DNA from: Enchytraeus crypticus
Taxonomy: Eukaryota; Annelida; Clitellata; Enchytraeida; Enchytraeidae
Reading direction: 5' to 3'
NCBI GenBank assembly: GCA_905160935.1
Contig: CAJHZI010000433.1
Span: 310,001-374,000 of the forward strand
Length of the DNA: 64,000 nucleotides
Shown here piece by piece: positions 8,775 to 11,700 of the stretch. A model generated the notes under the pieces. The model saw only the letters and a program-made list of their open reading frames with translations. It did not search any database and was not told the DNA's origin. A program made the position numbers and the translations under genes. Position 1 is the stretch's first letter; every line of letters begins with the position of its first letter.

Positions 8775-11700
8775 ATGACATCTATAGAGTTTGGAGGAGG
8801 ACCCACGGTGGAGCAGAGAAGAGAGTTTGTGAAGGTCAAGCATGGCTCTCAGAAACCTGGGTAAGTTGTCCATGTTGGGACTCCTCTATCTGAAAAACCT
8901 GGACAGTTAAGTAATTGAATGTTGTGATGTAGTGTAGAGAGTGGTCGCCCTGTATAACAACAACAATAAGATTAGAGTGCTACTGTTGTCCTTGATAACA
9001 TCGAACACTGTGGAACCAAATTAAAACCGATGAGCAGAGTGAGGGGTTCATAAACGGTGCAAGCCAAAATCCGGGTAAGCAATACAAGGAAGAGTACTAG
9101 CGGAATGTAGGTTTACGTGTTGGTCTCCGAACATGGGCATTTGGTGGAAACAATATATCAAATAAGCAGAGGTAAAAGAATGGATAATTGTAGGCAAATA
9201 GCCAAGTAGATATAATATAGTATAATTATTGCTTTGATCATGAATATTTAGGCCTATTCAATGTTCACTGCACACAAATGATATGTGATCTAGTTTTATC
9301 AACATATAATAGGAAGGCTAAACGTATATCATCTGCTGTGGAATCTACATGTACATGTATTCTAATTTTTAATAAAGCCGCCAAAATTTTGATGACAACG
9401 CGAGTTATCCTATATAGTAAAGCGCTTCATCTGTATATTTGTCGATGTGTCATTTAAAAATAAGATTTATTTTGCATGACAAGTCGCAAGATAATTTAAA
9501 TGATAATTTTTAGAATAAGTCACGTGATAACTTGATATTGTGCAGGTATACGGGATACTGCCCTCAGGTGAAGTACAATGCTGGTCGAACGTTCGGAGAT
9601 CAGACCCACATCTCAGCTGAGGTATGAACCATTGTACATCTCAGCTGAGGTATGAACCAGTGTACATCTCAGCTGAGGTATGAACCATTGTACATCTCAG
9701 CCGAGGTATGAACCATTGTACATCTCAGCTGAGGTATGAACCATTGTACATCTCAGCTGAGGTATGAACCATTGTACATCTCAGCTGAGGTATGAACCAT
9801 TGTACATCTCAGCTGAGGTATGAACAAGTGTACATCTCAGCTGATGTATGAACCATTGTACATCTCAGCTGAGGTATGAACCATTGTACATCTCAGCTGA
9901 GGTATGAACCATTTTACATCTCAGCTGAGGTATGAACCATTGTACATCTCAGCTGAGGTATGAACCATTGTACATCTCAGCTGAGGTATGAACAAGTGCA
10001 CATCTCAGCTGAGGTATGAACCAGTGCACATCTCAGCTGAGGTATGAACCAGTGTACATCTCAGCTGTGGTATGAACCAGCGTACATCTCAGCTGAGGTA
10101 TGAACCAGTGTACATCTCAGCTGAGGTATGAACCAGCGTACATCTCAGCTGAGGTAGAGACAAGGATTTCAGAGACAAAGTGCAATTTAGTAACATAAAA
10201 ATGTCAAATAAAAATGATTTAGTAAACGCGTGTACTTCCATAGAAAAATGATCATAATATACATCGTTTGCTATCAACTGACCAGTAATAAGCTTCATAA
10301 TTTACCTTAGGGTTTCATTTTTTAAACTCTCAGATCAATTATGAAGTTACGAAAATGGTTATGAAATTATTGCGTTGCTATGTTGCAAAATTATTTACTC
10401 CAGATAGTCTTAACACATATAGAATGTCAAATATAATTATTTGTAAATCTGTCTGCAAAAATATTAAGGTGGCACACTAAAATTAGAAAAAATTCATAAT
10501 TTGAATTTAACAAGAACAAATCCACCTAGATTGAGTCCAGCATTCTGTGATTTTTATTGAAAATACTCTCATCACTTTTGTCTCTTTGATGTTAATCTTC
10601 ATTCCATATTTCAATGCCGTATCATTCAGACTATCCATTATCTTCTGTAGGCCCGTCTCGCTTCCCGCTACCATTCCTTTGTACCGCTACCATTTTAAAA
10701 TTTGTGTCGGAACCAGCCTTACCTGAATATATGCTGTTAGATACTGTAAGACATGTAAATGCAAAACTAATATATATTTGTATTGTTCTTACTATCTTTA
10801 TTTAATGTCAGGCAGGTGAAGTAGAAAGGAACTACAGGAGTTTGGTTCAGTTCGGTTTGGACGAAGTCTGAGTTCGAGTTCGGTTCGGCCAGAGTCTGGG
10901 TTGGAGTTCGATTCGGTTCGGTCAAAATTCTAGATTTTAGGGTTCGGTTCGGGTTCGGTTCGATTCCCATCTCTAATATTTGTTATATTTTTTTTTAATT
11001 TTGACAACCGCAGAAAGCTACGCTGCAGAAATTCTAACAGAAACAGCATAACAAATTAAAGATATAGCATATTAAACAGTTAATAGGCAACATATAATCG
11101 ATCGATAGGCATGGTTGACTGATTAGTTGATTGATTGTTTTTATTAATTGACTGATTTTTGATTGATAAATTGATTGATTGCTTGATTGATTGATTTATT
11201 AATTGATCGATTCAATGACTGACTGACTGATTGATAAAAAAGTTTATCAATCAGTCTTAAGTTTTTATCTATTGATTGATTAATTGATGGACTGACTGAT
11301 TGATTGATGATTATTGATTTTTTGCTTTGATCAGGATTATCCTCACGTGTGCACTGAGATAGACGATGGTTCCAGTGGACGTCCGCAAACACTGAACGAG
11401 ATTCCTACTGTGGCGGGAGTCAACAAGTATCTTGATGACATGAAACCTGGATACTCCGGTAAGTGATTCACCTACATGTATTATTCTATTTGAGCTAATC
11501 TGTCGTTCATTTAATTAAAACTATCAACTAAGCTATCCTAATAAAATCTATATGTATACAAATGTACTTACTTATAAGGCATTCCGAATTCCACGGTTTT
11601 CCGGGTTGCTAGAAAAATAGACCAACCGTGTACTGCACCTATCGTAAAAGGCGACGTAACAATTAGATCCAAACCAACTTCAGAAAGGGTATTCGGTTGG

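Follow-up and report, generated by a model that had tools for sequence, protein, structure and literature searches.

The CIMIP2-like gene of the annelid Enchytraeus crypticus carries a 28-bp minisatellite that spans the boundary between exon 2 and intron 2. The array is probably a mirage-type minisatellite that arose by duplication of the gene's own splice junction, and most likely persists as a length-unstable passenger that is close to neutral, rather than as a regulator, with the donor at position 9622 expected to be the one mostly used. "Mirages" is the name given in amphioxus to tandem repeats that lie across exon/intron boundaries (PMC3087553). The window analysed here is a stretch of 64,000 nucleotides from contig CAJHZI010000433.1 (positions 310,001 to 374,000, forward strand), and all coordinates below refer to it. 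Its GC content is 33.8%, and a value of 35.4% is reported for the nuclear genome of E. crypticus (PMC8460440). An origin from amphioxus (GC approximately 41%) was rejected on this value and on the annelid character of the mitochondrial contig. The features of the gene and of the array are as follows.

8775..8860, + strand: exon 1, coding part from the ATG; placed by the open 172-amino-acid frame across four exons and by Pfam PF10629.
9546..9621, + strand: exon 2, whose last 14 bases (9608-9621) also form the first half of unit 1 of the repeat; placed by the reading frame and the FAM166B alignment.
9608..10156, + strand: 28-bp minisatellite of 19 complete units and 17 bp of another, in which GT recurs 19 times downstream of the true donor, at 9622 + 28n; placed by TRF and the unit layout, its unit being unique to the locus.
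9622..9627, + strand: true donor GTATGA of intron 2, the sole one of 20 that gives the full-length protein; assessed by U1 pairing.
10157..10165, + strand: filler of 9 bp, GAGACAAGG, where the array breaks off; similar to GAGACAAAG, which is found immediately within the transposon fragment.
10166..10975, + strand: non-autonomous hAT-like transposon of which the right part remains and the left part is missing; recognised by repeat matches and by the ends and target duplications of other copies.
11335..11458, + strand: exon 3, with intron 2 ending at 11334; from the gene model.
12187..12419, + strand: exon 4, including the stop codon; from the gene model.

The reading frame, the AG/GT signals and homology were used to place the exon ends; once spliced, the four exons form a single open frame of 172 amino acids. 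The predicted protein matches Pfam family PF10629 (CMI2B-like; E 1.4e-16, 60.8 bits, cut-off 21.6), and all eight distinct PDB sequences that match it are FAM166A/B or CIMIP2A/B proteins, which bears out the earlier assignment of the gene to the CIMIP2 family. A search for relatives in a large protein database gave 25 candidates, none of them at E 0.001, and a second search gave two candidates, neither at E 10. In its second stretch, the alignment to FAM166B chain 8to0_B6 runs gap-free from residue 27 past the exon 2/3 junction, which falls after residue 54, and thereby favours 9622 as the donor that is actually used. An insertion is present a few residues past the same junction in the first stretches of both 8to0_B6 and 7rro_H. 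A second microtubule inner protein gene adjoins the CIMIP2-like gene, where the frame at 13186-13434 (+ strand) matches PF22573 (SPMIP5, sperm-associated microtubule inner protein 5; E 3.1e-07, 30.5 bits, cut-off 21). Approximately 500 bp ahead of the ATG of the CIMIP2-like gene, TRF also detects 24-bp arrays at 7920-8268, which consist of AGTGCTACTGATAATGCAGCTGAC and a variant of it.

TRF reports the minisatellite as a single array with a period of 28 bp at 9608-10156 (19.6 copies, 95% matches), which, aligned unit by unit, breaks down into 19 complete units followed by a partial one of 17 bp. The consensus unit is ACATCTCAGCTGAG|GTATGAACCATTGT, with the bar at the position where exon 2 gives way to intron 2 in unit 1. 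Unit 1 consists of 14 bases of exon 2 and 14 bases of intron 2 and straddles 9621/9622, and the array runs from inside exon 2, 14 bases before its end, into intron 2. The initial annotation was right to anchor the array on the exon-2 donor and to start it at 9608. Its end at 10159 has to be moved to 10156, three bases earlier, and its description of every unit as 14 exon bases followed by GTATGA is exact in 16 of the 19 full units, with deviations in units 4, 9 and 17. Across the full units, 18 of 532 cells differ from the consensus: three in the 14 exon-derived bases, none in GTATGA, and 15 in the last eight bases. Thus, GTATGA is invariant in 19 of 19 full units, while five of the eight tail columns vary. 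A comparison of the tail with the rest of the unit gives p = 0.02 for a grouping picked post hoc, and the donor core from -3 to +6 taken alone gives p = 1.0. The constancy of GTATGA beside a variable tail is a weak hint of constraint on the donor. The existence of the array cannot be due to chance.

When up to two mismatches are allowed, the unit core is found 19 times across the assembly (524,188,772 bases in 802 contigs), each time inside the array; the opposite strand and a reversed control each gave none. The assembly therefore carries a single copy of the array, and the restriction of the unit to this locus indicates that the array arose where it stands, by duplication of the splice junction. 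Within the array, units one or six places apart (lags 1 and 6) share a mean identity of 0.956, against 0.941 for lags 5 and 7, and units 3-8 and units 9-14 share a common order of variants. The peak at lag 6 and the matching variant order together point to the duplication of a six-unit block, a past change in array length. Junction duplication had been put forward as the origin of the array in the initial annotation, and both the uniqueness of the unit in 524 Mb and the block duplication within the array now argue for it. In the proposed course of events, a 28-bp segment comprising 14 bases on each side of the exon 2/intron 2 boundary would have been duplicated in tandem, a step that is well supported. 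The copies would then have multiplied by unequal exchange or slippage, including the duplication of the six-unit block, which is likewise supported.

Each unit of the array brings a potential splice donor with it. Twenty GT sites follow each other at intervals of 28 nt from 9622 on, and the GT is kept in all 20. The sequence GAG|GTATGA, from -3 to +6, is identical at 17 of the 20, the true donor among them, and the expected ladder of near-identical donors 28 nt apart is thus present. The deviating donors belong to unit 9 (GAT|GTATGA), unit 17 (GTG|GTATGA) and unit 20 (GAG|GTAGAG). Pairing was calculated with the 5′ end of U1, and amounts to -5.8 kcal/mol at the true donor and at 16 of the 19 downstream donors; the values for units 9, 17 and 20 are -1.9, -4.2 and -6.6 kcal/mol. 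The donors of exon 1 and exon 3 pair at -10.3 and -10.1 kcal/mol. By U1 pairing, the true donor at 9622 is weak and has no advantage over its copies. Leakage to the decoys is plausible given this weakness and the equal pairing at 16 of 19 decoys, with one decoy pairing slightly better (-6.6 kcal/mol).

The consequences of such leakage can be predicted from the reading frame. The phase at the true donor is 0, as had been claimed, and downstream donors are read in as GTA TGA. Translated in silico, all 19 of them yield a product of 55 amino acids instead of 172, in agreement with the truncation anticipated for any downstream donor. Messenger RNAs with premature stops of this kind would probably be subject to nonsense-mediated decay. 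The spliceosome would mostly pick the exon-proximal donor at 9622, so that the array would be discarded with intron 2, and slips to later donors would lead to the stop codon and probably to mRNA decay. The gene model requires only the pre-existing intron 2, and no additional intron bounded by repeat copies is needed.

A functional role of the array in splicing, such as the tuning or the triggering of decay suggested in the initial annotation, is unlikely from this analysis. In its simplest form, such a role would have the decoys compete with the true donor, with array length setting the share of premature-stop mRNA and hence the amount of CIMIP2-like protein. The identity of 17 of the 20 donors, the equal U1 pairing at 16 of the 19 decoys, the stop in which every decoy ends and the unchanged GTATGA of the 19 full units all speak for this. 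However, a reading with one donor in use is sufficient, the amphioxus counterparts are reported to splice normally (PMC3087553, PMC3902484), and donor-bearing arrays are not favoured in the sampled part of the genome (4 of 33, against 2.55 after shuffling). Regulation by competing decoys is therefore unlikely.

The last of these comparisons rests on a sample of 264 kb, made up of 200 kb of another contig and the 64-kb window. Minisatellites were retained at a TRF score of at least 60, a period of 10-120, at least four copies, a GC content of at least 15% and a complexity limit, with the best of overlapping rows kept. Thirty-three passed these filters, and together they occupy 8581 bp (3.3%) of the 264 kb. 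A strong donor motif occurs in four of the 33, this array included, against 2.55 ± 1.40 after shuffling of the units, and 73 of 300 shuffles reach four. In this small 264-kb sample, the four of 33 amount to no enrichment, and donor-bearing minisatellites as a favoured class are unsupported. With arrays making up 3.3% of the DNA, some should coincide with exon ends by chance, barring selection against them, and the overlap of one array with an exon end is less remarkable here. In period, copy number and purity, the CIMIP2-like array is within the range of the 33, and it differs from the usual intronic minisatellites of this genome in that it begins inside an exon and bears a donor.

A possible second boundary array is predicted from a TRF call at 27629-27736 on the minus strand (19-bp unit, 5.7 copies), where GGCCT|GTAAGTGT or GCAAGTGT is repeated directly after the acceptor-like sequence ttcattcttacag. 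A 22-bp array found by TRF at 52911-53230 lies beside one of four open frames (51058-55225, - strand) that by eye resemble exons of a choline-transporter-like (SLC44) gene. None of these four frames has a Pfam match at E 0.01, and the SLC44 name is accordingly a guess. The window also contains reverse transcriptase fragments, which match RVT_1 at 16346-16630 (+ strand; E 4.9e-16) and at 35661-36071 (- strand; E 6.1e-07). The mitochondrial contig, C802, holds COX1 and by eye has 12 protein genes on its + strand, in the order COX1, COX2, COX3, ND6, CYTB, ATP6, ND5, ND4L, ND4, ND1, ND3, ND2, which is the annelid order. The mitochondrial genome of E. crypticus is reported to share its gene order with Lumbricus (PMC8460440). 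Among the best 120 of 7694 matches, COX1 of this contig is 93% identical to records from Mesenchytraeus and Lumbriculus and 92% to one from Enchytraeidae. Elsewhere in the assembly, five partial COX1 matches were found off the mitochondrial contig, on C361, C424, C796, C373 and C166. Some of them contain TAA or TAG stops and one is below the family cut-off; they are probably nuclear copies of mitochondrial DNA.

The number of units, as distinct from the boundary repeat itself, could be a product of assembly, such that the repeat is real but its 19-20 units are not. For E. crypticus, Illumina and PacBio data were combined in a hybrid assembly with MaSuRCA (PMC8460440), and a boundary array is reported to have been mis-assembled in the amphioxus draft genome (PMC3087553). 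The private variants in the units and the clear block duplication nevertheless make an artefactual count quite unlikely. The array is also short, at 549 bp, relative to PacBio reads.

The array could in principle act as a dial, whereby shifts in length by whole units within or between worms would set decoy choice and the destruction of CIMIP2-like mRNA. Were this so, the dial would provide heritable, reversible control over a cilia or sperm-tail protein. We consider this very unlikely.

RNA structure offers another way in which the array might affect donor choice. The unit contains the palindrome CTCAGCTGAG, and base pairing between neighbouring units could give a row of hairpins in which most donors are buried, leaving less harm from decoys or less choice among them. 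The predicted folding energy of array RNA is -237.8 kcal/mol, whereas 100 shuffles give -165.9 ± 7.1 kcal/mol (z -10.1), but a large z is expected where shuffling destroys the repeats of a palindrome. The self-duplex of the unit is only mildly unusual, being equalled by 92 of 2000 shuffled units. Moreover, the predicted unpaired fraction of the true donor is 0.14 against 0.07-0.40 for its copies, or 0.22 against 0.07-0.39 with a span limit of 150 nt. Self-masking of the donors is thus highly improbable. Structure as a selector of the true donor is not supported, as 9622 is buried as much as its copies in the predicted folds.

The far end of the array is marked by a breakpoint. The array breaks off within unit 20, after 17 bp, at the interior of the repeat at 10166-10975, which has at least 39 other matches in the assembly (40 of 1681 candidates scored). 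Seven fetched copies of this repeat align with each other leftward of 10166, where the window has the array. Three copies with both ends measure 1369, 1467 and 1481 bp and extend from TAGAGATGGGAA to TTCCCATCTCTA. The 8-bp target duplication is exact in L008 (8/8) and matches at 7/8 in L002 and L007. In L006 the left end is one base off and the target duplication is 8/8 by eye, while a single end was found in each of L003, L004 and L005. Elements of the hAT group have inverted ends and 8-bp target duplications; by the terminal inverted repeats and the 8-bp duplications of its other copies, the element is hAT-like. A second copy of it lies within the window at 58344-60185 (+ strand), with aligned blocks at 58347-58971 and 59336-60171.

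The proximity of this high-copy element on the right is what favours a foreign source, in which the minisatellite came from a satellite or from the adjoining transposon and the exon gained its last codons from it, but this is extremely improbable, as the unit is found nowhere else in the assembly, the seven fetched element copies carry a different sequence at that place, and one FAM166B alignment passes through the exon end. The uniqueness of the unit and the other sequence in the fetched copies rule out a transposon-borne array. The missing left half of the element and the truncated unit 20 are explained by a deletion. This deletion, which is supported, would have taken the far end of the array together with the left half of the intronic hAT-like transposon, with the ends joined by 9 bp of filler. 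The filler GAGACAAGG may have been copied from GAGACAAAG as a template, and the array may formerly have been longer than it is now.

The array shares the structural features by which mirages are known. Its unit lies at a real exon/intron boundary with the AG/GT signals repeated, and it derives from the gene's own sequence, the unit occurring only at this locus. In amphioxus, mirage units of 10-72 bp are described in Adh3 and units of 150-160 bp in globin genes, and the BflGb6 mirage has six and three units in two haplotypes (PMC3087553). Further examples are given in troponin C, with imperfect ones in PGBD5 (PMC3902484). The amphioxus mirages, including those of Adh3, the globins BflGb6 and BflGb9, troponin C and PGBD5, resemble the present array in their boundary-spanning repeats, multiplied splice signals and block duplication. 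They differ in host, a cephalochordate as opposed to an annelid, and the globin units of 150-160 bp contrast with 28 bp here. Length instability and normal splicing are reported for the amphioxus arrays and are expectations for the worm array. Regular splicing is described as undisturbed by mirages, from which new introns were also proposed to arise (PMC3087553). In the parts consulted, two further amphioxus papers mention tandem repeats without a boundary-spanning structure (PMC2632668, PMC2206037).

Intron gain by duplication of AGGT segments (the Rogers model) is described for 24-bp tandem segments in fission yeast genes and for potato RdRp (PMC4974935). These cases also involve a tandem segment with AG|GT, and the 24-bp units of fission yeast are close to the 28 bp seen here, but in the worm gene model intron 2 pre-existed the repeat. 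In human genes within segmental duplications, minisatellites at exon-intron boundaries are reported to activate cryptic splice sites (PMC2812944). They are alike in their units of approximately 30 bp and their cryptic splice sites, and differ in that exons were expanded or new introns made, with transcript support and four units on average (PMC2812944). No annelid boundary minisatellite appeared among the open-access literature matches listed, although this is weak evidence of absence given the few annelid-directed queries. As far as could be seen, the kind of structure is already known and the phylum is new.

With this array, the range of minisatellites at exon/intron boundaries widens from chordates to an annelid. 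The array also constitutes a natural test of how the spliceosome chooses one donor among approximately 20 near-identical ones.
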